From: Nitrospiria bacterium
GTDB taxonomy: Bacteria; Nitrospirota; Nitrospiria; JACQBZ01
Length of the DNA stretch: 60,509 nucleotides
Direction of reading: 5' to 3'
NCBI GenBank assembly: GCA_035498035.1
Contig: DATKAN010000017.1
Location: 1-60,509 of the forward strand
A program made the translations under genes and the position numbers. Shown piece by piece: positions 5,176 through 54,406 of this stretch; the first letter of the stretch is position 1; each line of letters begins with the position of its first letter. The notes beneath the pieces are model-generated. The model did not search any database. It saw only the letters and a list, made by a program, of their open reading frames with translations, and was not told where the DNA came from.

Positions 5176-6453
5176 ATGACCTGGTTACAACGGTACCGCT
5201 GGCGGTCGTTCATCAAATCCTCTTTATGGCTCTACCCGGTGGCGGGATTGCTGGCCGCGACTCTGGTTGCACCGGTGATCCGGTGGTTGGACGGGCTTAC
5301 TCATTGGAGTTGGTTCAACTTCAATCCGGAAGGCGCCCGAGCCGTCCTGGGAGCGTTTTCCGCCTCGATGTTGACCTTCCTCGTCTTCGTCCTTTCCGCG
5401 ATGATCATCGTTGTTCAGCTGGCCAGCGCGCAGTTGACGCCCCGCATCATCGGCCTGTTTTTTTCCAGGCGGCAGATCAAGGTGGTCCTGGGCGCCTTTA
5501 CGTTTTCCTTCATCTACACCCTGGCTGCGCTGGGCCGGATCGAACAAACTGTTCCCCAATTACCCGTCGCTCTGGCGGTCGGTTTAAACCTGCTCTCCGT
5601 CATCGTCTTTGTCCGGTTCGTCTATGAAATCGGTGTCGGCTTGCGCCCGATCGCCTTGCTGGAGGACGTGGGCCGGGAAGGCCGATGGGTCGTTGAAAAC
5701 ATTTACCCTCGACTCTTCGACTCCATGCCCGGTAGGAATACGGCTTCCGACCCGCGACGGACTTCTCCAATCCGTATCATTCCCCATACGGGGGCGTCCG
5801 GCACGGTCCTGGCGTTTAGTCCCGCGCACATGGTCGAGCTCGCTCAACGGGCCGATGCAATGATCGAGTTGATTCCCCAGGTCGGCGATTTTATCGCGAA
5901 GGGAGACCCGTTCCTTCGCGTGACCTCCGAACAGCGTCCTGTGGACGACGAGGCCTTGCGTCATTGTATCGCCATCGGACCCGAACGCACCATGGAGCAG
6001 GATCCCCGATTTGCATTTCGCATCCTGGTCGATATCGCCAACAAGGCGCTGTCCCCGGCCATCAATGATCCGACGACCGCCGTGCTGACGCTCGATCAGA
6101 TCCATCGTTTGCTGCTCTATGTGGGACAGCGGGATCTCGGCTCCGGGGAAGGACGCGACGCGGAGGGAAAGCTTCGACTGGTCTATGACACGCCGGACTG
6201 GCCGGATTATGTCCTGCTCGCCGTTAGCGAGATCCGCCACTACGGCCAGGGCAGCATCCAGGTGGCCCGTCGGCTCCGGGCCATGTTGGAACACCTGATG
6301 CGGGTCTTGCCGGAGGGGCGAAGAGCGCCGCTGCGTCGCGAGCTTCAGCTGCTGCAGAAATCCGTGGAACGCGATTTTGACGATCAAATGGACCGCGACA
6401 TGGCGGAGGTTTCGGATAACCAGGGCGTGGGCGGGTCCGCTTCGTCGCGGTAG
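5176..6453 (+). CDS. DUF2254 family membrane protein
   Basis: A 425-residue inner-membrane protein with the layout of DUF2254: about four transmembrane helices in the first 170 residues (SLWLYPVAGLLAATLVAPVI, MLTFLVFVLSAMIIVVQLAS, VLGAFTFSFIYTLAALG, LNLLSVIVFVRFVYEIGVG). The signature SAQLTPRIIGLF follows the second, and then comes a large soluble C-terminal domain with DIANKALSPAINDPTTA. Function is unknown in the family. ATG 5176 is chosen; an in-frame TTG at 5152 is possible but has no better ribosome site. It reads toward the DUF4105 and hydrolase genes with a 51-nt gap. Confidence 0.88.
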   Translation: MTWLQRYRWRSFIKSSLWLYPVAGLLAATLVAPVIRWLDGLTHWSWFNFNPEGARAVLGAFSASMLTFLVFVLSAMIIVVQLASAQLTPRIIGLFFSRRQIKVVLGAFTFSFIYTLAALGRIEQTVPQLPVALAVGLNLLSVIVFVRFVYEIGVGLRPIALLEDVGREGRWVVENIYPRLFDSMPGRNTASDPRRTSPIRIIPHTGASGTVLAFSPAHMVELAQRADAMIELIPQVGDFIAKGDPFLRVTSEQRPVDDEALRHCIAIGPERTMEQDPRFAFRILVDIANKALSPAINDPTTAVLTLDQIHRLLLYVGQRDLGSGEGRDAEGKLRLVYDTPDWPDYVLLAVSEIRHYGQGSIQVARRLRAMLEHLMRVLPEGRRAPLRRELQLLQKSVERDFDDQMDRDMAEVSDNQGVGGSASSR

Positions 6454-6504
6454 CTCAAAAATCGAAAGGGAACGTACGCGGCGGACGAACCGGCCTCATT
6501 CATC

Positions 6505-7545
6505 ATGGGCGATTCCATTACAAAATCCGGAACAGGTTCATCCTATATTCTGAAAGGTTTGACGATATTTACCCGGGCCCTGTCCGGGTTGGCGTTGATC
6601 GCCATGACCGCGTGGGGCGTGCTTGCGATTTACTACTCCAACCTCCCGCCGATGGTCAGGGTGGTGTGCAGTGTCTTTTTCGCGCTCGCTGCTGTAAGCG
6701 GTCTTGTTTGGATCCGGCCCTGGCGCCGGGCCTTGGCGGTTTTCCTTACGGGTTTCATCGTCGTGCTGCTCGGATGGCTGGCCATTCCTGCCAGGAATGA
6801 TCGAAACTGGCAATCCGATGTCGCTGTCCTGCCGTATGCCACCCTAGAAGGGAATCTCGTCACGGTCCACAACATCCGAAATTTCGACTATCGCAGCGAG
6901 ACCGACTTCACCCCGTCCTATTACGACAAAACCTTCGATCTACGACAGCTCGACTCCGTGGATCTCATCGCCGTATACTGGATGGGGCCGGACATCGCGC
7001 ATACCTTTTTGAGTTTCGGCTTCGGCGGAAAGGATCATCTGGCCATTTCGATCGAGACCCGAAAAGAACAGGGGGAAGGATACTCAACGATCCAGGGGTT
7101 CTTCAAGCAATATGAGCTGTACTACGTGGTGGCCGACGAGCGCGATGTGATTCGGGTACGAACCAACTATCGCAAAGATCCCCCAGAGGACGTCTACCTC
7201 TTTCCCCTTCACGGTCGATTGGAAAATGGCCGGCACCTGTTTTTGGAATACATGCATGCGATCAACGCGTTGAAGGAACACCCGGAGTTTTACAATACCC
7301 TAACCACCAACTGCACCACGACAATCTGGCTCAACAGCCGGGTGAATCCCGGCCATCTGCCCTTCTCCTGGAAGCTTCTGCTGAGCGGCCACGTGCCGGA
7401 GTATTTATACGAGGCCGGGCTGATCGATACCCGACTGCCGTTTCCGGAGCTGGTGGCGCGCAGCCTGATCAATTCCCGCGCAAAGGCCGCGGATCAGGAC
7501 CCCGATTTTTCAGTGCGGATCCGGCAAGGACTGCCCGGACTATAA
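6505..7545 (+). CDS. DUF4105 / Lnb N-terminal periplasmic domain protein
   Basis: A 346-residue protein. Three hydrophobic segments lie in the first 100 residues, then a DUF4105 domain starting at SDVAVLPYATLEGNLVTVHN and NFDYRSETDFTPSYYDKTFDL. Motifs HTFLSFGF (about residue 170) and TTNCTTTIW (Cys about 270) match the conserved His and Cys regions of the family. In Lnb-type proteins of Firmicutes this domain belongs to enzymes that rearrange acyl chains on lipoproteins. Whether this member does so is inference. It is followed after 19 nt by a hydrolase lipoprotein, so the pair may act on envelope lipids. Confidence 0.85.
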   Translation: MGDSITKSGTGSSYILKGLTIFTRALSGLALIAMTAWGVLAIYYSNLPPMVRVVCSVFFALAAVSGLVWIRPWRRALAVFLTGFIVVLLGWLAIPARNDRNWQSDVAVLPYATLEGNLVTVHNIRNFDYRSETDFTPSYYDKTFDLRQLDSVDLIAVYWMGPDIAHTFLSFGFGGKDHLAISIETRKEQGEGYSTIQGFFKQYELYYVVADERDVIRVRTNYRKDPPEDVYLFPLHGRLENGRHLFLEYMHAINALKEHPEFYNTLTTNCTTTIWLNSRVNPGHLPFSWKLLLSGHVPEYLYEAGLIDTRLPFPELVARSLINSRAKAADQDPDFSVRIRQGLPGL

Positions 7546-7564
7546 TACGGAGGATCGTTTTCGC

Positions 7565-9499
7565 GTGTTCGACGAGGGGGATAAAGAAAATAGGCGGTGG
7601 ATGTTAACCCGGGCCTTGCCCCTAGCCTTATATCTATTGCTGGCCGTATCCCTTTTCGGCTGTATCACACCCATCGGTGTACGGAAGGTGCCCACCGATA
7701 TCACCTACCGGGAAATCACCGCCAATGCCATCAGCGGCAATGTAATCAGCCAAGATTCCGAGGTCGTTCTGTATCGCTTTGGCCTCCTGGATCGGTTTTA
7801 CAAAGACCCCGCGGGGGTCATCGCCCTTCTTCATGAGAAGGCGAGCAGGGACCCCCGGCGTGACCTGCGCTTTGCCCTTGCGGAGATGAGCTACTACTAC
7901 GGGACCCTACTTGAAAAACGGGGCATTTTCTATCCCAATTGGGCGGAACCTTACGAATACTATCTGATGTCCGCCGTCTATTCCTATTTCTACCTGTTCG
8001 CCGAGGGCGGGACGGAACAGGGGGATCCTTACGACCGCCGATTCCAGATCGCCGTCGACATGTACAATCGTGCGCTCGGCAAGGGCCTGGCCACGGGGAA
8101 AGACGGCCAACTGGTGCTTCAGGATGAAATCCGCCAGTTGCCCGTCGGCAATATTGAGATTTCTCTCAAATTGAAGGCGCTGCCGTGGCCGCTGGAGGAC
8201 TTCGACCGCTTCCTGCCGGCGGATGACTACACCGTGTACGGATTCAGTATTCTGGCCCGAACTCCGGGTATCGGCCTGCCCCTGATCGCCGTGCACCAGA
8301 AAACACCGGAATATCCCGGAGGGCCCTCAATTCCTATGACCGCTTTCTTGCGTGTCCCCGGGGATGTTCAAGACCTCAACGACAAGACCCCCCTCGCGTC
8401 CCTGGAACTTTATTCGGGTTATAAAGAAACGACCATCGTGGCCAACGGCCAAAAGGTCCCGTTGGGAACGGACACAACAACGCCGCTGGCGTACCGGCTC
8501 AGCGATGCCTACCTCTGGAGCCAACTGGGTCCCCGGCGGTTTATATTCGGCGGCCAGGAAAAGCCGAAGCTCATTATGGTCCAGCCCTACGTGGCCGGGC
8601 GCATACCCGTCGTTTTCATTCACGGGACCGCAAGCAATCCCCTCTGGTGGGCCGAAATGTTCAATACGCTCTATTCCGACCCGGTCCTGCAGGAACGGTT
8701 TCAATTCTGGTTCTACATGTACGACAGCAACCTTCGGGTCCCGGTTTCGGCCGCCGCGATGCGCGACATCCTGACCCAAACGGTGGCGAAACTCGATAGG
8801 GAGGGGATGGACCCCGCGTTGCATGAGATGGTGCTGGTCGGACACAGTCAGGGGGGGTTGCTGGAGAAAATGAGCGTGGTCAAGACCGGCGATACGCTCT
8901 GGGATGCCCTCAGCAAGGTAAGCCTAAAGGACCTGAAAGCGAAACCCGAATTAAAGAAGGAATTGCAAAAGGAATTTTTTATCGAGCCGCTCCCTTTCGT
9001 CAAAAGGGTGGTCTTTATTTCAACCCCGCATCGAGGAAGCTTCCGGGCCAGTTCATGGGTTCGAAGCATTCTCCGGCGCATTGTTACACTGCCGGGTGAT
9101 ATCCTTACGACAAATCCCAAGGAGTACTTCAATGTTATTGAACAGGCCAATTTACCCCCCGAGTTTCGCGGCCAGGTATTTACCAGCGTGGACAGCATGT
9201 CGCCGGAAAATCCGGTCCTCAAAGCCCTGGCCGGGATTCCGGTGGCCCCCGGGATCAAGTCCCACTCGATCATCGCGGTCCTGCCGGAGTACAGTGATTA
9301 CACAAAAGGAAATGACGGCGTGGTCCAGTACTCGAGCGCCCATATCGAAGGGGTGGAGTCCGAATTCATCGTACGCGATCAGCATTCCTGTCAGGGGAAC
9401 CCGTTGGTGATCGAGGAAGTGCGCCGGATCCTGCTGGAACATCTTGCTTCTGTCTCGGAATCATTCAAATCGCACGAGCCTACGACACCGACGCAGTAA
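7565..9499 (+). CDS. large alpha/beta-hydrolase lipoprotein
   Basis: A 644-residue protein beginning at GTG 7565, 10 nt after GGAGGA. A lipobox (LAVSLFGC) places it on a membrane face outside the cytoplasm. The first about 330 residues are a family-specific region. After this comes an alpha/beta-hydrolase fold: PVVFIHGTASNPLWW (oxyanion region), VLVGHSQGG with nucleophile Ser428, a putative acid in GNDGVVQYSSAH, and a late His in RDQHSCQGNP. The hydrolase part resembles secreted lipases/esterases of the triacylglycerol-lipase type (HGTxxxPxxW). The natural substrate is unknown. It is the third gene of the DUF2254-DUF4105-hydrolase row. Confidence 0.8.
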   Translation: MFDEGDKENRRWMLTRALPLALYLLLAVSLFGCITPIGVRKVPTDITYREITANAISGNVISQDSEVVLYRFGLLDRFYKDPAGVIALLHEKASRDPRRDLRFALAEMSYYYGTLLEKRGIFYPNWAEPYEYYLMSAVYSYFYLFAEGGTEQGDPYDRRFQIAVDMYNRALGKGLATGKDGQLVLQDEIRQLPVGNIEISLKLKALPWPLEDFDRFLPADDYTVYGFSILARTPGIGLPLIAVHQKTPEYPGGPSIPMTAFLRVPGDVQDLNDKTPLASLELYSGYKETTIVANGQKVPLGTDTTTPLAYRLSDAYLWSQLGPRRFIFGGQEKPKLIMVQPYVAGRIPVVFIHGTASNPLWWAEMFNTLYSDPVLQERFQFWFYMYDSNLRVPVSAAAMRDILTQTVAKLDREGMDPALHEMVLVGHSQGGLLEKMSVVKTGDTLWDALSKVSLKDLKAKPELKKELQKEFFIEPLPFVKRVVFISTPHRGSFRASSWVRSILRRIVTLPGDILTTNPKEYFNVIEQANLPPEFRGQVFTSVDSMSPENPVLKALAGIPVAPGIKSHSIIAVLPEYSDYTKGNDGVVQYSSAHIEGVESEFIVRDQHSCQGNPLVIEEVRRILLEHLASVSESFKSHEPTTPTQ

Positions 9500-9797
9500 T
9501 CTTCCTATTCCCAATTCCCCCCTCATTGGATCAATCCATCGGTAAAGGTCGGCATGGCTCCGGCCCCTTCCCTATTTCCATTTGTACGGTCTACAAAAAA
9601 ATCCTTAATTTTCCTGTCGGCCACCGGAATAGGCCCGTTATGAATATGATAAACCGCGTTTAAAAATCCGGTCCGTCAAACTCGTAAGACCCTGTTTAGC
9701 CAACCTTTTTGACCATGATTCGGGTTGACAGTGCCCGCATTTCAGCTATCCTTGTTAATAGGTCCCGGATAAACCTTTATAATGAGGCAGGGAACAC
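9500..9797. other. intergenic region with promoter
   Basis: Almost 300 bp without a gene between the hydrolase lipoprotein and the HEAT-repeat protein. It is more AT-rich than the flanks. No terminator hairpin with T-run was found. The right end holds a sigma-70-like promoter (9725-9752). Confidence 0.5.
9725..9752 (+). promoter_or_regulatory. sigma-70-type promoter for the HEAT/HD-GYP genes
   Basis: A perfect -35 TTGACA (9725-9730) is followed after 16 bp by TATCCT (9747-9752). Predicted transcription would start near 9759, about 40 nt before the TTG start of the downstream gene. Confidence 0.6.
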
Positions 9798-11912
9798 TTG
9801 GACGAAACACCCCCGTCGACACAGGTCATTGATTCCCAACATATTGTAAACGTCCTGATCGGGCTTCAGGTGGCGATTCGCAAGGTGGGGCTCTACTCCT
9901 TCTCCCATTCCGTCGTTCCCAGCCTTTTGGAAAACCTGGAAACAAATTTCAACGCTCTCTTTGAATCGATAGGGGGAGTCACGTTCGGAATCACCCGCCA
10001 TGAATTTTTATTCCAGGATACCTCGCTTTCGGCCGGGAATCCGGTGATCCGCGAGCTCGCCCGCGGACTGAATCAGTTTGGATTGGCCGGAATGTCATTT
10101 TCAAAAGGGCTCACCAGAGACGACATTTTAAAATTTCTCAGACTGCTTGTGGAGGGCCGCGGACAGACGCCGGAGCAACGGGAACGGATGATTGCCCGGT
10201 TGCACCAGGAGGTCCCGGCTATCCGGTTGAAGCTGATCCGTTTTGGAGAAGCGCTAAAAGGTCCCCGGGAGACGGTCGATCCGGAAAAACGAGAAAATGC
10301 GGAGCCGCAGGAAAAAGGGTTATGGCGCGGGCTGGTCAAACAGCTGTTGGACCAAAACGCGGGGAACGGCCAATCGATACCCGGTATGAGCGCCGATGAA
10401 AAAATCGACATTGAAAAACTGGGGGAGCTCATCAATCAACTCTGTCGGGAAAACGGGCCGGAATCAAAAAAGAATGAACAAACCATTGCCGGATTCCTGC
10501 GCGCTCCGACCGAAGGCCGTTTCCTGGACCACGAGCAGCGAATGCATCTGTATCGTGAATTATCCAGGATGCTATCGAACCTCGACCCGGCCGTGAGAGA
10601 ACAGATTTTTCGTTTCTCGGTGGAGGACACGGACAACGACAAAGCCCCCGTGGAAGATCTCCTGGAATTCTTGCCGGAAACCCAGCTGGTGGAAATCCTG
10701 AACCAGATTCAATTATCCAATCAGGGGGTCTCCGCACCCATGTTGAGTCTGCTGAACAAATTGACCGATCTATCGTCTCAAAATGAAAAGATCAAGGAGA
10801 TGTTGACCTCCAAGCTGGAGAATCACCAGGACCTGGTTCAGGAGCTCTTCACCAACCGGGCCACCCGAACCTATTATCCTTCCTCATACCGCTCTCTTCT
10901 GGATGAGGAATTGGCTCATGAAAAGTTTGAAAAACAGTCCCCTCCCGTGGACGAGATGAAGGAAATCGAACCGGACTCGGTCAACCGACACCTCGGCCTT
11001 GTCCTGCTGGAACTTCTGGACGGGCCCATTCGATCCCAACCCGAGTACGAATGGCTGATCCGGCAGGTCACCCGTGTGTTGACGGGGGGAATGGGAGATC
11101 ACAAACAGGCCGTCCTGAAAGAAACCCTGTCGATTCTTTTCGGAAAGCTGAACTCGGCCGACGCGGCCACCCGGTCTTTTATCCAAAAAGAAATCAGAAA
11201 TTTCATCACGCCCGAGGTGTTCGCGGGCCTCCTCCAATCCTTACGGACGGATGGCGACGAGCGCGTGGGGGACCTGCTCGGCCAATTGAAAGAACTGGCC
11301 GGGTCCGAGGGGATCCCCATGTTGCTGGATCTTCTGGAGGTCGAGGAGAATTTGTCGGTCCGAAAACGCCTGTTGCAATGGATTATCCAGTGCGGTCCGG
11401 CCGTGATCCCCATGGCGGTGCAACGTCTGAAAAATCCAAAATGGTATGTGGTCCGAAACATGCTGGTTTTGCTCAAGGACCTCGGGGCGAAGGAGGCCTT
11501 GCCCGAAATCCTTCGAAGTCTTCAGGCGGACTCCTCAAAACTCAGGATGGCCGCGCTCCAGGCGATTGAATCCCTGGGAAAGGGCACCGATATCTTCGAT
11601 CGCGCCGTCTCCACGGCGCTTCGCGATTCCGACCCGGCGGTGTTCCGCAAAGGCGTATCGATGATTCTCTCCCAACCGGATGACCGGGCCATGGAGATGA
11701 TCCGGTCCATGTTGCGATTTACCGGCGAGATCAGCGCGGAAAACCAATTGATTCCCGTACTGGAGATGATCCGAAAATCCCGTGTAAAGAAACTGGTCCC
11801 GGACCTCTTGAAACTTCGGCGTCACCTGAGGCTTCGATTCTGGCAATGGAACCGGATCGGGGTTCTGTACAAGGCCGTCAACCATACCCTCCGCGAACTT
11901 CGGTCGGGGTAA
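9798..11912 (+). CDS. HEAT-repeat protein with an N-terminal domain shared with the adjacent HD-GYP protein
   Basis: A 704-residue soluble protein starting at TTG 9798; no ATG in frame gives a better start. Residues about 10-120 (VAIRKVGLYSFSHSVVPSLL, FLFQDT, GMSFSKGLTRDDILKFLRLL) form a domain that recurs at the start of the next protein. The middle is charged and helical. From about residue 400 the protein is a chain of HEAT-like helical pairs (GSEGIPMLLDLLEVEENLSV, AVIPMAVQRLKNPKWYVVRN, ALPEILRSLQADSSKLRMAA). Such repeats usually bind other proteins. The 7-nt gap to the HD-GYP gene implies co-expression. No enzymatic motif is visible. Confidence 0.75.
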   Translation: MDETPPSTQVIDSQHIVNVLIGLQVAIRKVGLYSFSHSVVPSLLENLETNFNALFESIGGVTFGITRHEFLFQDTSLSAGNPVIRELARGLNQFGLAGMSFSKGLTRDDILKFLRLLVEGRGQTPEQRERMIARLHQEVPAIRLKLIRFGEALKGPRETVDPEKRENAEPQEKGLWRGLVKQLLDQNAGNGQSIPGMSADEKIDIEKLGELINQLCRENGPESKKNEQTIAGFLRAPTEGRFLDHEQRMHLYRELSRMLSNLDPAVREQIFRFSVEDTDNDKAPVEDLLEFLPETQLVEILNQIQLSNQGVSAPMLSLLNKLTDLSSQNEKIKEMLTSKLENHQDLVQELFTNRATRTYYPSSYRSLLDEELAHEKFEKQSPPVDEMKEIEPDSVNRHLGLVLLELLDGPIRSQPEYEWLIRQVTRVLTGGMGDHKQAVLKETLSILFGKLNSADAATRSFIQKEIRNFITPEVFAGLLQSLRTDGDERVGDLLGQLKELAGSEGIPMLLDLLEVEENLSVRKRLLQWIIQCGPAVIPMAVQRLKNPKWYVVRNMLVLLKDLGAKEALPEILRSLQADSSKLRMAALQAIESLGKGTDIFDRAVSTALRDSDPAVFRKGVSMILSQPDDRAMEMIRSMLRFTGEISAENQLIPVLEMIRKSRVKKLVPDLLKLRRHLRLRFWQWNRIGVLYKAVNHTLRELRSG

Positions 11913-11919
11913 AACCGTC

Positions 11920-13158
11920 ATGGCCGACTCAAAATCCTCAATCCCATCGGGTTCCGATGCCAAGGAGGCCCTCCCGAATCCTCCCGCCCATCCGGATTAT
12001 CCACAGGCCGGTCCGGAGGAAAAGTTCCTCAGGGCCCTATCGAAATTATCGCGGGATCGTGTGATGTATCCCGAGAAACATCCTCAAATCCTTTTGGATG
12101 TTTCAATCCTCCAAGACGCCGTCCCGCCCCTATTTGAGAATCGCCCGGAACGGATTTTTGTCTTTATTGAAGATCAGATATTCGTGGATGATCGCCGGCT
12201 GATGACCGCATCGACCCAAGCGCCCGACATCGTCAAGGTTTTTCGGGACAAAAAAATCGACGCCCTTATCCTTCGAAAAGGATTGGGGTGGGAAGAGCTC
12301 GATTCATTTCTCAACGCCCTTCATTCATCCAACCCGGACAACACCCCCAGACCGTTCCCTCTTTCCCCAACGATCGAAATCCGGAGGTTCACCTCCAAGG
12401 ACGGGGAAAAACCCATCGTCCATTCCGACTCCCAGGAACCGGAACCATCGGTCTCAAAAAAATCCTTAAACAAGGCGCAGTTCTCCGATGAAACCAAGAT
12501 GATCCGGGATATTTACACAGAATGGAATGCTCCCAATGGGGCCCAAGTGAGCATGGTCTTTAAAATCATGAATGTTCTGGAAAAGGGACTCTATGATCAC
12601 CATCAATCGTTCATTCCCCTGGCCGATCTAAAATCCTATGATGAATACACCTATGTCCATGCCATCAACCTGGCGATATTGACCATGGCCCAGGCTGAAT
12701 CCTTTGGAATGCCAAAGGAGGCCGTTCGCGCGTTTGGCGTCGGCGCCCTTCTTCACGACGTGGGAAAGACCCACGTTTCGGTAGATATCCTGAACAAACA
12801 AGGGCAGTTGACCCCGGAGGAGTTTGAGGAAATGAAAAAACATCCCGTCCTAGGGGCCACCGCATTGTTGCAATATCCCGAGATCCCTCCGATCGCCGCC
12901 ATCGTGGCGTACGAGCACCACTTGAAGTATGACGGATCGGGTTATCCGACGATGAAACAGAAACGGCTTCCGCATATCGCCAGCCGGTTCACATCCATTT
13001 CGGATCAATTCGACGCCATGCGGAGCAACCGACCTTATCGGGAGGCCATGCCCCCGGAAAAGATTTTCGAGGTGATGCAGGAGAACAAGGGGACGGCCCT
13101 GGATCCCAAGCTATTGGATCATTTTATCGTCTTCATGAAATCGAGAAAAATTATTTGA
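11920..13158 (+). CDS. HD-GYP domain phosphodiesterase
   Basis: A 412-residue protein. The N-terminal domain (about residues 30-130: KLSRDRVMYPEKHPQILL, IFVDDRRLM, LILRKGLGWEELDSFLNALH) is the same fold-pattern as that of the upstream HEAT protein. The C-terminal HD-GYP domain is complete: YVHAINLA, ALLHDVGKTHV (H279-D280), MKKHPVLGA, YEHHLKYDGSGYP (H333-H334, GYP 341-343), ISDQFDAM and RPYREA. HD-GYP enzymes hydrolyse cyclic di-GMP (some act on cGAMP) using two or three metal ions, and all ligands are present here. It is encoded 7 nt after the HEAT gene, with which it likely forms a complex or shares an input. Confidence 0.88.
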   Translation: MADSKSSIPSGSDAKEALPNPPAHPDYPQAGPEEKFLRALSKLSRDRVMYPEKHPQILLDVSILQDAVPPLFENRPERIFVFIEDQIFVDDRRLMTASTQAPDIVKVFRDKKIDALILRKGLGWEELDSFLNALHSSNPDNTPRPFPLSPTIEIRRFTSKDGEKPIVHSDSQEPEPSVSKKSLNKAQFSDETKMIRDIYTEWNAPNGAQVSMVFKIMNVLEKGLYDHHQSFIPLADLKSYDEYTYVHAINLAILTMAQAESFGMPKEAVRAFGVGALLHDVGKTHVSVDILNKQGQLTPEEFEEMKKHPVLGATALLQYPEIPPIAAIVAYEHHLKYDGSGYPTMKQKRLPHIASRFTSISDQFDAMRSNRPYREAMPPEKIFEVMQENKGTALDPKLLDHFIVFMKSRKII

Positions 13159-13268
13159 TCCGTGCGAATACTCCCGGATCGGGTCTTATAACCCGCTGAT
13201 AGAATAATGAAAAGCAATATGGCGTGGTCAAACGGCCATCGGCCGTACAGAAGCCGGATCGTTCTTTG

Positions 13269-13277
13269 TGGTATACT
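13269..13277 (+). promoter_or_regulatory. extended -10 promoter element
   Basis: TGG followed by TATACT (13272-13277) is an extended -10 element in the 213-bp gap before the GAF protein gene. The -35 region is poor, as is common with extended -10 promoters. Confidence 0.45.
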
Positions 13278-13371
13278 CATTTTAGTGTGAAGATTCATCA
13301 TGTTAAGGGCTCGGCAGGCCTTGACGGGGCTTGATCATGCGGTAGAGCGCGCATTGTAGGGGTGGAATAGA

Positions 13372-15624
13372 ATGGCTGAATATGATGTGATCCGGGATCT
13401 CCTCGTCCAATTTCATTGGATCACCCAGTTGGTGGACGCCACTCTCAAGGGCAAGCCCATCCCGCCCATGCACGGTCAACCCACCCCCCAAGTCAAACAG
13501 CTTATGAGCTCCCTGCAAACGCTTTCGGAGCATTACAAGAACCTCGAAAACCAAATCAACACCTACAAACGCAAGCAGCAGGCGCTGGAAATCACCTTTA
13601 AAAACATGTCGGCCCAGCTCGACATGGAGAAAAAGGGCTCGTCCAATGCGGCCCTGTTGGAGGCGAACCTCAAGCGAGCCGAACGGCGGATCGACGATCT
13701 CATTTCGACGAACCAGGCCCTTCGGGGTCATATCATGGAATTGACGAATCAGTTGACGTCGAGCCGGCAGGAGCTCGCTTCCCGAGTCCCGCCGCCCAAA
13801 ATACCTCTTCCTCAGGAAGGCGAGCCGTCTTTACCACCGTCCAAAGACGCCGGGTCTCCTCCTCCGTCCCCCCCGCTTCAGCCCCCGGCCCAAGCCAAGG
13901 GGGAACCCTTGGAGGGCGACACACAGGCCCTTCTTTCCATACTCAAAACGGTTCAATTGATGGACACCAACCTTTCGCCGGATGAGGTGGTCAGGCGCGC
14001 CTGCCAGATCCCCTTGGATTGCTTCGGCAGTCAGCGAAGCGCGGCCTTCCTCTGGGATAAGGATTCCGCGAGCTTCATCCCGATCCATTCCTTGGGAATG
14101 AAGGCCTCCCTCATTTCCGCATTCGGGGCATCTCGACTCCGCGGAACGGACCTCCCCGTCCTGACCCAATTGCTGGCCAAGGGAGGGACCCTGGTGATCG
14201 AGGACTGCTGGAAGAGCCCCGCAAAGGGAAAGGTCTATGTTACCGACGGACGGATTGAATCATTCGAAAGCCCTTTCATGTTCTTACCCAAGGAGTTCAT
14301 TGAACGCTTTGAAATCTATTCCCTCATGGCCGTTCCCTTTGCTCATAAGGGAAAGACCTTGGGCGTCCTGTTTGTGGATTATGGAAACAACCCCCATGAA
14401 TTTTCGGAGACCGAAATCACCGTCATGAACGGGCTGGGGTTGTTTATCGGAATGAGCCTCGACAACATTCAAAGACATCAGACCACCGCGCAGCGTCTGC
14501 TAAAAATCGAACGCAGGAGCGAAACGGAATCCGTGCTCCGGAACATTGAAGCGGCCCTCTCCTCGATGGATCAGCCGGAGCCGGTCATCGGATCCGTCAT
14601 CGGGATGATTCCGCGCGTCATCGGGTGCGACTGGGTTTCGGTGCTTCTGCGCGACAAACCGGCCGGAGGGTTTTATGTCCTGGGCAACCTGGGGGATCTC
14701 AGCGATCTGGTGTACGGGAAAGGCACCATCCCCTTCGATTACCTCAACGGCGCGGCCGATCTTCAGAACGATCGCATCCTCCACCGGGCCAACCTGGAAA
14801 CCGAAAGCAGGACTTCGGCCCTGGATCTTTATCTGGTCAGTCACGGGATCCGATCCGATGTGTACGTGCCTATCCCCGTTCCGGGAGAGGTGATCGGATT
14901 GCTTCATCTATGCAGCCGCCGGGTGGCGGGTTTTGTTCAAGAAGACATCGCCCTCGCCCAAGATATTGCAAAACGGCTCGGCCACGGCCTGGAGAAGACC
15001 ATGGCCCAGAGAGTTCGGGACCGCCGCAAAACCAACGGTCACTTCAAACAGATCGAATCGTTGATCGACAGCCTATCCGGAAAAGACTTTAAATTGGGGG
15101 ACTACCGAGACGAGATGATTGCCTGCGGGCTCGAAGTGGCCCGCCGGCTAAAGTTGGATGAAGAGCAGCAGGGCTGGATCAAATACGCCATTGTCCTTCA
15201 CGAGATCGGGAAAAACGCGATCCCCGATTATATCCTCAACAAACGGGAGAAGCCGACGCCCAAGGAGCTGGCCATCCTCCGGAGTCATCCCACCAAAGGC
15301 GCGGAGATGATCAAAACGTTCCGATTCAGCCACCTCATTAAGGGATTGAAATTCAGTAAATTCGTCGCCCCCCAGATACGGCACCTGTACGAGCGTTGGG
15401 ACGGAACCGGTTATCCCGAAGGATTGAAAGGGGAGGCGATTCCCATCGGATCCCGGATTGTGGCCGTGGTCAACGCGTACGCGGCCATGACGACCGGACG
15501 ACCTTATCGTCAGGCCCTGAGCAAGCCGGAGGCCTTGCGGGAAATTCAGGACGGCGCGGGCACCCAGTTTGATCCGCGCGTCGTGGAGATTTTTCTCCAG
15601 TACCAAAATCAAAATCCAAAATAA
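13372..15624 (+). CDS. coiled coil - GAF - GAF - degenerate HD-GYP protein
   Basis: A 750-residue cytoplasmic protein. Residues about 35-140 are coiled coil, then a Pro-rich linker (about 142-180). A GAF domain (about 190-370) contains the phrase LMAVPFAHKGKTLGVLFVDY, and a second GAF (about 385-545) contains SDVYVPIPVPGEVIGLLHL. The C-terminal domain has the HD-GYP outline (ERWDGTGYP with GYP 680-682, IPIGSRIVAVV, RPYRQAL), but most metal ligands have changed. The HD pair is HE (H610-E611), the HH pair is LY (672-673), the D after the GYP region is N701, and the first His is absent. It is therefore probably a sensor or scaffold rather than a phosphodiesterase. It lies downstream of an intact HD-GYP gene. 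Confidence 0.82.
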   Translation: MAEYDVIRDLLVQFHWITQLVDATLKGKPIPPMHGQPTPQVKQLMSSLQTLSEHYKNLENQINTYKRKQQALEITFKNMSAQLDMEKKGSSNAALLEANLKRAERRIDDLISTNQALRGHIMELTNQLTSSRQELASRVPPPKIPLPQEGEPSLPPSKDAGSPPPSPPLQPPAQAKGEPLEGDTQALLSILKTVQLMDTNLSPDEVVRRACQIPLDCFGSQRSAAFLWDKDSASFIPIHSLGMKASLISAFGASRLRGTDLPVLTQLLAKGGTLVIEDCWKSPAKGKVYVTDGRIESFESPFMFLPKEFIERFEIYSLMAVPFAHKGKTLGVLFVDYGNNPHEFSETEITVMNGLGLFIGMSLDNIQRHQTTAQRLLKIERRSETESVLRNIEAALSSMDQPEPVIGSVIGMIPRVIGCDWVSVLLRDKPAGGFYVLGNLGDLSDLVYGKGTIPFDYLNGAADLQNDRILHRANLETESRTSALDLYLVSHGIRSDVYVPIPVPGEVIGLLHLCSRRVAGFVQEDIALAQDIAKRLGHGLEKTMAQRVRDRRKTNGHFKQIESLIDSLSGKDFKLGDYRDEMIACGLEVARRLKLDEEQQGWIKYAIVLHEIGKNAIPDYILNKREKPTPKELAILRSHPTKGAEMIKTFRFSHLIKGLKFSKFVAPQIRHLYERWDGTGYPEGLKGEAIPIGSRIVAVVNAYAAMTTGRPYRQALSKPEALREIQDGAGTQFDPRVVEIFLQYQNQNPK

Positions 15625-15804
15625 CCTCTACCCTATCGAACCACGCCCCTTTCTCTCTGAAAGTGAAGGCGTCTCCCCGATTGACACCCTAAGCGCCCGT
15701 CCTATAGAATCAGGATGGCCTGATTTCGCGGCCAACGGCCCCGAGCCGTTCGGATATATCTATTCGGATCAGAATACTTTATGAACCTGTTAAGGACCCT
15801 CGGG

Positions 15805-16938
15805 ATGGATTCGCCTTCGGATGCTTTTCGGAAACCGTCCAGGGCTATGCGGGCCTCCCTTCTCCTGCTGGCACTGACCCTCCCGGTCGACGGCAGCGCC
15901 CGGAGCCTGGAATCCTACGACCTGAGTACGAGTCCAAAAGGGCCCAAGTTTATTTCCCTGGCCGCGGGAAGCCATCACGTTTGTGCGATCCTCTCGACCG
16001 GAAACGTCGGGTGCTGGGGAAGCAATATGATGGGGCAGCTCGGTAACGGCATTCAGGTTGACGCTCCTTCCGAGACGCCGGTCGGGGCGATCGGAATATC
16101 AACCGCAACCGATATCGCGGCCGGGGATGTCCACTCCTGCGCCCGGCTCCGGAACCGCACCGTGTGGTGCTGGGGAAGCAACCGCTTCGATCAGCTGGCC
16201 GCCTCCGGCATTGCGAGCTCGGCGGAGCCCGTCCAGGTATCCGGGATCACAAGCGCCGTCAGGATCGCGGCGGGTTCGTTCCACAGTTGCGCCTTGTTAG
16301 AAAACGGCCGCGTGCTTTGCTGGGGATTTAACAAGTCCGGACAGCTCGGCAGAACATCGGAACCCCAGTCGGACCATCCGGTGGAGGTCGAGGGAGTCGA
16401 ACATGCGGTGGCCCTGTCCGCCGGCGGGTCCCATACATGTGCCGTGACGGCAAGCGGCGCGGTCCAGTGCTGGGGCGCCAATTTCTCGGGGGAGCTCGGA
16501 ACCGGGACGCAAGAGTCCGCGTCCGGACCGGTCACGGTGGCCGGCCTTCCCCCGGCCCGATCGGTCGCGGCCGGCGAGAACCATACCTGCGCGGTTCTGA
16601 GAGACGGCCGCGTGGCCTGTTGGGGCGGCAACACCACCGGGCAGGTCGGAAACGGCACGACCGCCAACTCGGGAAAACCGGTATTGATCGATGGCGTTGC
16701 GCACGCAAGGAGTGTGACGGCAGGCCGCTTCCACACCTGCGCCCTGCTGAAAGGCGGGCGGGCCGCCTGCTGGGGAAGCAATAACAACGGCGAGCTCGGG
16801 AGCGGTTCTAAATCCGGTTCGCTCAAGCCGATCCCCGTCTCGGGGATCTCTTCCTTAATCGCCATCGCCGCCGGTGACCGGTTTACCTGCGGAATCCTTC
16901 GGAATGGAACCGCAAAATGCTGGGGCGGCATTCGATAG
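15805..16938 (+). CDS. secreted RCC1-type seven-repeat propeller protein
   Basis: About 377 residues: an N-terminal signal (MRASLLLLALTLPVDGSA) and then seven repeats of about 50 residues. Each repeat carries AAGxxHxCAxLxxGxVxCWGxNxxGQLGxG. The pattern is that of RCC1 / chromosome-condensation repeats forming a seven-bladed propeller. Every repeat has one Cys before and one in the CWG, giving 14 repeat cysteines likely paired in disulfides, in line with export. ATG 15805 has AAGGA 8 nt upstream; in-frame ATGs at 15781 and 15847 are alternatives. Bacterial members are usually found in secreted or cell-surface proteins; the binding partner is unknown. Confidence 0.85.
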   Translation: MDSPSDAFRKPSRAMRASLLLLALTLPVDGSARSLESYDLSTSPKGPKFISLAAGSHHVCAILSTGNVGCWGSNMMGQLGNGIQVDAPSETPVGAIGISTATDIAAGDVHSCARLRNRTVWCWGSNRFDQLAASGIASSAEPVQVSGITSAVRIAAGSFHSCALLENGRVLCWGFNKSGQLGRTSEPQSDHPVEVEGVEHAVALSAGGSHTCAVTASGAVQCWGANFSGELGTGTQESASGPVTVAGLPPARSVAAGENHTCAVLRDGRVACWGGNTTGQVGNGTTANSGKPVLIDGVAHARSVTAGRFHTCALLKGGRAACWGSNNNGELGSGSKSGSLKPIPVSGISSLIAIAAGDRFTCGILRNGTAKCWGGIR

Positions 16939-52309: not shown

Positions 52310-54406
52310 ATGGTCGTCTATTTGATTCTGGCCAGCGGAAACTTGGCCGCATGCCTCGTCCTTGTCGGATGGGTCAAGGCCGTATTTCCGGACGACCTTC
52401 TTCCCGTCCTCGAGGTTTTGGGAATCTACCTGGTCCTGGCGCCGTTTCCTCTCCTGCTCCCGTTCAAGCGGCGGCATCCGGAGCCCCGGCCGAGCGAATT
52501 GATGCCGGTCTACCTGATGGCCCTGGCCCTTATTTTCATCACGGCCGCTTTTAGCTTGGAGTTCCACCGGCAACTGATCGAGCTCCGCCTCCCCATGGTC
52601 GTCATCGACCCGGTATGGCTGACCCTCCTTTTCTTCGTGGGGTACCTGCCCGCCTCCCTCCTGCTCAGTTTCGGCCTGGCCCGTCTTGCGCGGAGGCCTC
52701 GAGTCGCCAAAACCCTGCTCCTGAGTCCGGGCTACGGCATCCCGATTCCCGCTCCCCCGGCGCATTCAAGGGCCAAACCGGCCGAGGTCATCGCCGTCGA
52801 GCCGACGCCGAAAAAGGAGCCCGAAAATCAATTGACATTAAGCGCCTCGCAGGATATAAACGAGCCGATGACGGCGAGCGGTCAAGGACACGACAAAAAC
52901 GTCTTGAGCACCAAATTTTCACGGTTGATGACGCTGTTTTCGCTGGCGGCGGATCTTAAAAACGACCCCTCGGAACTCATTCACACGCTGCTGAACTCCC
53001 TTGGGATCCTGTTCAACCTGAACTCGGCGTCCGTCTTGATTTGGGATCGGGATCGACAGGCATTCAAAACCGTGGCGACGTTCGGACAAGCCACGGAACC
53101 GCTCCGGAACTTCCAAGCGGACGCCTCGGTGGACCCGATCCGCACATTGATGGAACAACAACGTCCGTTATCAATTCACGATACGCTCGAAATCCTGAGA
53201 GCCGGTTTTCCGTCCGGCATTACCTCGGTCTACCTCTTCCCCTTGTTCACCTCCAACCAGCGCGTTGTGAGTTTGTTGTGCATCTTCGACACGCCCATCG
53301 ACGACGAGACCGCCCAGATCATCTCGGCGTTCTGCCAGCAGGTTTCCCTGGTTCAGGAAAACTCGCAACTTCAACGGGAGCGGCGGGATCTGACCAAGGA
53401 TGTCTCGGTTTTTCTGGAGATCGCCAAGACCGTCGGCTCCGCCATGGACTCCGAAGAGATCTTCAGCGCCATTCTGGACAAGTCCACTCAGTACGTGCAG
53501 GCGGAACAAGGTTCGATCATGCTTTTAGACGAAGACCGCCGGGAGCTGTCGATCAAGGCGATGAAGGGGCTGAACAAAAAGATCGTGGAACTGCTGAAGA
53601 TCCGACCGGGCGAAGGCATTTCGGGCCAGGTGTTGACGAGCGGCAGCCCGCTGATGGTGGCGGACATCGACGCGGACCATCGGGTCGCACAGGAAAGACG
53701 CCCTCGTTATAAAACCAAGTCGTTTATCAGTATCCCGCTCAAATTGAGCGGCCGGACCATCGGCGTTCTCAACGTCGCCGACAAAGTGAGCGGGGAGGTC
53801 TTTTCGGATGAGGACCTGCAACTCCTCGTTTCGATCGGGGCCTACGCCTCTGTGGCGATCGAGCGGTCCCGATTCTATCAGAAAACCGAGGAACTGAAAA
53901 AAATCTCGATCACCGATTCCCTCACGGGACTTTTGAATCGCCGCTATTTCCAGGAGCGCATGTCGGAAGAAATCGAACGATCCCGCCGTCACCACTTGCC
54001 CCTGTCGTTGATCATGCTTGACGTGGACAACTTCAAGCAGGTGAACGACCGCCTGGGACATCTGATCGGGGACGAGGTCTTAAAGGCGACGGCGCGGTGC
54101 CTCCGAAACAGCATCCGGACGATCGATGTGGCCGCCCGTTACGGGGGGGAAGAGTTTACCGTCATCCTTCCGCAAACCAGCAAGGCCGATGCCCAAACCA
54201 TCGCCGAGCGTATCTGCGCGGAGGTCTACCGACTCGATCTCCCGTTTATCAAGCCCGAGCAGAAAATAGTCTTGAGCGTCAGCCTGGGACTGGCGACCTA
54301 CCCGGAAGACGCCGAGACGCTGGAAGACCTGGTTCGCAACGCCGACATCGCGCTCTATGCCGCCAAGTCCCAGGGGAAGAACCGAGTCGTCGTCTACGGG
54401 AAGTAA
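52310..54406 (+). CDS. membrane GAF-GAF-GGDEF diguanylate cyclase
   Basis: About 698 residues. Four N-terminal transmembrane segments (about 1-130) are followed by a linker, a GAF domain (about 205-365) and a second GAF (about 380-535; MLLDEDRRELSIKAMKG, FISIPLKLSGRTIGVLNVAD). The catalytic domain (about 545-698) starts ITDSLTGLLNRRYFQERMSE. The active site is RYGGEEF (about 612), and the RTID five residues before it is a complete I-site for product inhibition. It should make cyclic di-GMP. ATG 52310 has AGAGGGG 8 nt upstream; TTG 52292 is less likely. Confidence 0.93.
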   Translation: MVVYLILASGNLAACLVLVGWVKAVFPDDLLPVLEVLGIYLVLAPFPLLLPFKRRHPEPRPSELMPVYLMALALIFITAAFSLEFHRQLIELRLPMVVIDPVWLTLLFFVGYLPASLLLSFGLARLARRPRVAKTLLLSPGYGIPIPAPPAHSRAKPAEVIAVEPTPKKEPENQLTLSASQDINEPMTASGQGHDKNVLSTKFSRLMTLFSLAADLKNDPSELIHTLLNSLGILFNLNSASVLIWDRDRQAFKTVATFGQATEPLRNFQADASVDPIRTLMEQQRPLSIHDTLEILRAGFPSGITSVYLFPLFTSNQRVVSLLCIFDTPIDDETAQIISAFCQQVSLVQENSQLQRERRDLTKDVSVFLEIAKTVGSAMDSEEIFSAILDKSTQYVQAEQGSIMLLDEDRRELSIKAMKGLNKKIVELLKIRPGEGISGQVLTSGSPLMVADIDADHRVAQERRPRYKTKSFISIPLKLSGRTIGVLNVADKVSGEVFSDEDLQLLVSIGAYASVAIERSRFYQKTEELKKISITDSLTGLLNRRYFQERMSEEIERSRRHHLPLSLIMLDVDNFKQVNDRLGHLIGDEVLKATARCLRNSIRTIDVAARYGGEEFTVILPQTSKADAQTIAERICAEVYRLDLPFIKPEQKIVLSVSLGLATYPEDAETLEDLVRNADIALYAAKSQGKNRVVVYGK

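Follow-up and report, generated by a model that had tools for sequence, protein, structure and literature searches.

Adjacent HEAT-repeat and HD-GYP genes with a common N-terminal domain: a candidate two-gene signalling module in Nitrospirota

Three consecutive genes of a Nitrospiria bacterium raise the question of what the signalling unit at this locus is. The original prediction proposed that a HEAT-repeat protein, an HD-GYP enzyme, and a third protein with a degenerate HD-GYP domain form a single complex, while the evidence below favors the first two genes as the unit. The window analyzed is the whole 60,509-nucleotide stretch of contig DATKAN010000017.1 (assembly GCA_035498035.1), from a genome of 2.67 Mb in 67 contigs.

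The locus and its N-terminal domain

The features considered, all on the forward strand of the window, were as follows.

9725..9783, + strand: two sigma-70-like promoter matches 5' of gene 1 (matches to consensus only)
9798..11912, + strand: gene 1, HEAT-repeat protein; open reading frame of 704 aa with a TTG start
9831..10247, + strand: N-domain of gene 1 (about residues 12-150), matching that of gene 2 in profile comparison
11313..11567, + strand: HEAT_2 match in gene 1, residues 506-590
11920..13158, + strand: gene 2, HD-GYP protein; open reading frame of 412 aa; HD_5 match with E 5e-22
12016..12399, + strand: N-domain of gene 2, residues about 33-160; own-genome model match with E 2e-27
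12610..13143, + strand: HD-GYP domain of gene 2, with H247, H279, D280, H308, H333, H334, and D362, and G341-Y342-P343
13372..15624, + strand: gene 3, with a coiled coil, two successive GAF domains, and a degenerate HD-GYP domain; open reading frame of 750 aa
15061..15582, + strand: pseudo-HD-GYP domain of gene 3 (residues 564-737), with substitutions at five of the seven ligand positions

Genes 1 and 2 are spaced by 7 nt and genes 2 and 3 by 213 nt. Eight sigma-70-like sites were found over positions 9400-16000, where 3.4 were expected.

The HEAT_2 match of gene 1 (E 5e-10) scored 39.9 bits against a curated cut-off of 27.7, and an all-helical solenoid was predicted on both sides of it in a low-confidence full-length model. 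This poor model (pLDDT 61.5) matched general HEAT/ARM proteins in Foldseek, including PP2A A chains. A search of 97 other genomes found relatives spanning most of the protein in 13, some of these relatives being broken by contig ends.

The HD_5 match of gene 2 scored 79 bits against a curated cut-off of 27.2, and the seven ligand positions and the GYP motif were invariant among all 53 aligned HD-GYP proteins. The closest solved chains were 4mcw, which we take to be PmGH, and a 3'3'-cGAMP-specific phosphodiesterase; c-di-GMP and 3',3'-cGAMP would therefore both be possible substrates. From its membership of the HD-GYP family, we infer that gene 2 may exert control over a cyclic dinucleotide. 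The genome contains 11 HD_5 matches and 25 GGDEF matches, so that enzymes of the substrate-making kind exist in it. Of these GGDEF matches, the strongest falls inside the window, at 53909-54385, within an open frame of 706 codons.

A common N-terminal domain of the HEAT and HD-GYP proteins had been proposed from two short motifs, and this proposal was borne out by profile comparison. Pairwise BLAST of the N-termini of genes 1 and 2 revealed no visible relation (E 0.77). A profile-profile comparison of 11 HEAT with 13 HD-GYP sequences gave a P of 3.6e-8, and the comparison of 50 HEAT with 53 HD-GYP sequences gave a P of 2.3e-23, with a probability of 99.5% over 104 ungapped columns. The real N-domain profiles scored 122, while one reversed and 29 column-shuffled controls scored only from 7.4 to 14.0. 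By these profiles, the N-domains of genes 1 and 2 are homologous.

The N-domain exceeds the two motifs first quoted and extends over about 135-145 residues. An AlphaFold2 model of the gene 1 copy was confident (pLDDT 87.3, pTM 0.80), with the predicted order alpha-alpha-beta-beta-alpha-beta-alpha-alpha-beta, although its alignment consisted of eight rows mixing HEAT and HD-GYP copies and it is hence no independent proof of a common fold. Helices were predicted at residues 13-32, 39-55, 82-93, 107-120, and 125-138, and strands at 60-65, 70-72, 96-102, and 142-146. Neither N-domain of the window matched a Pfam family up to E 10, and a search with 60 members of the domain at E 0.1 returned scattered weak matches to unrelated families, with at most two members per family. 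Foldseek found no solved structure at E 0.001 or better (best E 0.35), and a second structure comparison gave a Z of at most 4.6, which is not proof of a new fold. As judged from these searches, the N-domain is new to the domain databases searched.

Conservation of the pair and the wider range of the N-domain

A total of 58 loci were fetched, 56 via a HEAT match and two via an HD-GYP match. A filter on the HEAT gene (score, length, and no masked letters) was passed by 50 of these, and eight loci were dropped as fragments, for masked letters, or for a low score. An HD-GYP gene directly followed the HEAT gene in 49 of the 50. The remaining HEAT gene (L123) stops at a contig end, and another contig of the same genome (L136) opens with a HEAT-gene remainder followed by an HD-GYP gene. 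The spacing between the two genes ranged from -56 to +134 nt among the fetched loci, often with an overlap, and a single outlier of -293 resulted from an over-extended open reading frame. The genes flanking the pair vary from family to family, and the pair itself is therefore regarded as the unit. In five loci of one subtype (L188, L189, L190, L192, and L207), the pair is preceded by a conserved open reading frame of 91-92 aa and by another gene, presumably tatC, judging from its sequence.

A census was then based on the N-domain alone, with a sampling blind to adjacency. The own genome of the window contained exactly four N-domains and no further copy; these make up two pairs, one in the window and one on contig C25. 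Among the Nitrospirota sampled, the N-domain was found in 46 of 61 genomes (128 matches), where 112 of the matches form 56 same-strand pairs in 38 genomes. In a second phylum, to which the Geobacteraceae MAG G314 belongs, it was found in 28 of 59 genomes (75 matches), and 54 of the matches form 27 pairs in 21 genomes. In a third, that of the Elusimicrobiota MAG G353, the domain occurred in nine of 50 genomes, with one pair visible, in G353 itself.

Re-reading covered 67 pairs, namely all 27 from the second phylum plus 40 of the 56 from Nitrospirota; of the other 16 in Nitrospirota, 14 lie in loci that were read separately. The second gene encoded an HD-GYP protein in 67 of the 67 re-read pairs, and a HEAT signal was present in every one of their loci. 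The seven ligands were intact in 65 pairs, and the other two were truncated by contig ends. A frame change divides the HEAT gene of L308. An apparent HEAT/HD-GYP fusion in L134 was rejected, as the reading frame shifts there across a run of N letters that marks a gap in the assembly. Of the two findings that would have refuted the original prediction, unrelated N-terminal regions and a neighborhood not kept in relatives, neither was made for genes 1 and 2; the neighborhood is kept both among the fetched HEAT genes and among the re-read pairs. The conservation of the pair in two large phyla suggests a widespread two-part signalling machine.

The same distribution bears on a possible role of the pair in defence or conflict, where the HD-GYP protein would cut a nucleotide and the HEAT protein would sense an invader. 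Adaptor domains common to adjacent genes are described as typical of conflict systems in parts of PMC7159879. However, the pair is common in Nitrospirota (38 of 61 genomes), unlike defence systems with their patchy distribution, and PADLOC returned only weak matches that covered part of its HEAT, Cas3, Cas10, and coiled-coil models. A defence system was rejected on these PADLOC matches, and we regard this explanation as extremely unlikely.

A phylogeny of 103 N-domains demonstrated that the HEAT-type and HD-type copies separate almost fully. Only three changes between the HEAT and HD labels were required, compared to 34.6 in shuffles, and one exception was a long branch (L043); the tree was built from few columns and many of its forks are open. 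Distances between the partner proteins were correlated with an r of 0.94 among 48 pairs, while 1000 permutations gave at most 0.14, and the correlation was retained within two subtypes (0.96 among 34 pairs and 0.95 among 14 pairs); common descent by itself would be expected to produce such a correlation too, and it was not used as proof of binding. The nearest neighbors of the partner proteins agreed in only 26 of the 48 pairs.

The N-domain also occurs outside the pair. Among 16 unpaired matches in Nitrospirota, seven were read. Three of these (L290, L292, and L296) were pairs whose second N-domain had scored below threshold, another three (L289, L293, and L297) carried the N-domain on PAS-histidine kinases, and the last (L291) carried it on a GGDEF-AAA-HEAT protein. 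In the second phylum, 21 matches were unpaired. These included two loci with HEAT plus HD-GYP by domain models (L243 and L268), an AAA-HEAT protein (L266), and two in which no Pfam family was found (L264 and L265). Additionally, the N-domain forms the start of histidine kinases from Elusimicrobia and of a receiver-SpoIIE protein from Planctomycetota (L214, L218, and L226). The original prediction asked whether the domain always pairs HEAT with HD-GYP proteins; it does not, given its occurrence in PAS-histidine kinase, receiver-SpoIIE, AAA-HEAT, and GGDEF-AAA-HEAT proteins. The N-domain is wider than the pair, and the pair is its main setting in Nitrospirota.

The L291 protein (positions 5328-9170, in genome G030 of the same class) is a single chain of 1280 aa that combines GGDEF, an AAA ATPase, the N-domain, and HEAT repeats. 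By its domain content, this one chain is a putative counterpart of the pair on the cyclase side.

These wider occurrences introduce the main rival to a coupled module, namely a general sensor role of the N-domain. The domain would be a sensory or ligand-binding input, and the HEAT and HD-GYP proteins would bind the same signal, be co-transcribed, and act in one pathway without forming a complex through it. Consistent with this, the domain heads PAS-HisKA kinases and the receiver-SpoIIE protein, and input domains of kinases are usually N-terminal; it also lies inside AAA-HEAT proteins, and its HEAT-type and HD-type copies are distinct. However, nearly all Nitrospirota copies sit in two adjacent genes, and no solved structure was close enough to point to a ligand (Foldseek E 0.35, Z 4.6). 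A sensor role was considered rather unlikely on balance, while the occurrence of the domain on histidine kinases and the other outputs, which suits a sensor no less than an adaptor, was counted against the module reading.

The neighboring pseudo-HD-GYP gene

Gene 3 carries two GAF domains, as had been proposed, and an HD_5 match with an E of 2e-36. The description of its HD-GYP domain as lacking metal ligands was only partly accurate. At the seven ligand positions of gene 2, gene 3 has Y, H, E, H, L, Y, and N, hence two of the seven are kept, H610 and H639. An alternative phmmer alignment could place His671 of gene 3 at the first His of the HH pair. With this set of residues, gene 3 lacks the complete metal ligands that define an HD-GYP phosphodiesterase. 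All five members analyzed (gene 3 and four orthologues) were degenerate, including one orthologue in which a further His was lost, while all ligands are kept in a more remote homologue of about 28-31% identity, a single gene represented by both L285 and L276.

When gene 3 was compared with the four orthologues, its degenerate domain had a dN/dS of 0.06-0.11 and was the slowest-evolving part of the protein, more strongly constrained than the remainder; the values were 0.08-0.15 in the GAF part and 0.18-0.36 in the N-terminal part. Gene 3 was conserved in three genera of one family.

A single complex of all three proteins, in which gene 3 would serve as a pseudo-enzyme sensor, gains some appeal from this slow evolution and from the two further genomes of the genus among those read (L122 and L136), in both of which gene 3 follows the pair. 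However, the N-domain was sought in gene 3 and is absent. In two sister genera, the 17.0 and 12.0 kb read around the orthologues of G003 and G005, respectively (78% and 68% identity), contain no pair, and the pairs read in other families have no neighbor resembling gene 3; adjacency of gene 3 to the pair was confined to its genus. Gene 3 as a part of the locus was rejected on this context, and the three-gene complex of the original prediction did not hold up; we regard it as highly unlikely. Instead, gene 3 is a real pseudo-enzyme under constraint and is judged separate from the pair. In the window, gene 3 is adjoined by a gene for an RCC1-repeat protein (15781-16938). In L136, an RCC1-repeat gene and a rhodanese-like gene are kept together with gene 3.

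Proposed mechanism and comparison with known systems

In the best reading of these results, to which we give about an even chance, genes 1 and 2 encode a coupled two-gene module in which the HEAT protein is a regulatory or targeting subunit acting on a cyclic-dinucleotide phosphodiesterase via the paired N-domains, with gene 3 independent. The N-domains of the two proteins would dock on each other, and the HEAT solenoid would be a subunit dedicated to the HD-GYP enzyme. Its arm would bind a client or signal protein and so switch or place the hydrolysis of the cyclic dinucleotide, most likely c-di-GMP and possibly 3',3'-cGAMP. Gene 3 would be an independent GAF-GAF pseudo-HD-GYP protein that is located next door by chance in this genus. 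The many roles in which HEAT repeats occur count against this reading.

More tentatively, and with somewhat less than even confidence, the pairs may represent a widespread and undescribed class of two-component phosphodiesterases, composed of an HD-GYP catalytic subunit and an obligatory regulatory subunit, the HEAT solenoid, that are joined by a paired new domain. The same domain would then also connect kinases, a phosphatase, and a GGDEF-AAA-HEAT protein to a shared adaptor system. A search of mostly open literature on HEAT repeats with HD-GYP or c-di-GMP, Nitrospirota, Geobacter, degenerate HD-GYP domains, and adaptors returned no description of the pair.

The usual explanation for the regulation of HD-GYP enzymes lies in sensor domains of their own polypeptide. 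In the present case, a HEAT protein made from an adjacent gene is the partner, tied to the enzyme by a common domain, in more than 100 pairs read across Nitrospirota and the second phylum. If the two proteins bind, this would be a new way to regulate or place the breakdown of a second messenger, in bacteria whose signalling is hardly known. The N-domain provides a defined domain family to name, and the degenerate domain of gene 3 offers another lead, apart from the pair.

Among known systems, the HD-GYP phosphodiesterases PmGH (4mcw) and PA4108 have the catalytic domain, the seven ligand positions, and the GYP motif in common with gene 2. Where the trinuclear PmGH site has a Glu, gene 2 has Tyr243. 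Enzymes of this type have GAF-like, receiver, or DUF3391 N-terminal parts, whereas gene 2 has an unlisted N-domain that is also carried by the adjacent HEAT gene. A broader parallel is the scaffold A subunit of PP2A, a HEAT solenoid that holds a metallophosphatase, as the HEAT protein here possibly organizes a metal-dependent phosphohydrolase. This likeness is one of general HEAT resemblance only, in a low-confidence model (pLDDT 61.5), and the enzymes are unrelated.

According to parts of PMC12943098, DUF3391 is located N-terminal to HD-GYP, SpoIIE, and other output domains and is composed of four to five antiparallel strands and one to two helices, with a C-terminal helix. The N-domain resembles DUF3391 (PF11871), the usual N-terminal domain of HD-GYP proteins, in where it sits relative to such output domains. 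In contrast to that description, the N-domain model, which is a prediction only, starts with a pair of long helices and comprises five helices and four strands in total. DUF3391 was rejected as an identity for the N-domain, as no match was found in the Pfam searches above (window N-domains to E 10; 60 members to E 0.1) and the predicted topology differs.

The logic of the pair has a nearer parallel in adaptor domains. Parts of PMC7159879 interpret one domain copied into two adjacent genes as an adaptor for homotypic coupling. The effector-associated domains (EADs) described there are, like the N-domain, a single domain copied into neighboring genes, and the N-domain shares with these adaptors the presence of the same domain in two adjacent genes, a likeness of arrangement. 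While EADs couple vWA/MoxR or GTPase cores to effectors, the partners here are a HEAT solenoid and a second-messenger phosphodiesterase. By analogy, the coupling-adaptor idea in those parts of PMC7159879 is the closest logical precedent for the pair.
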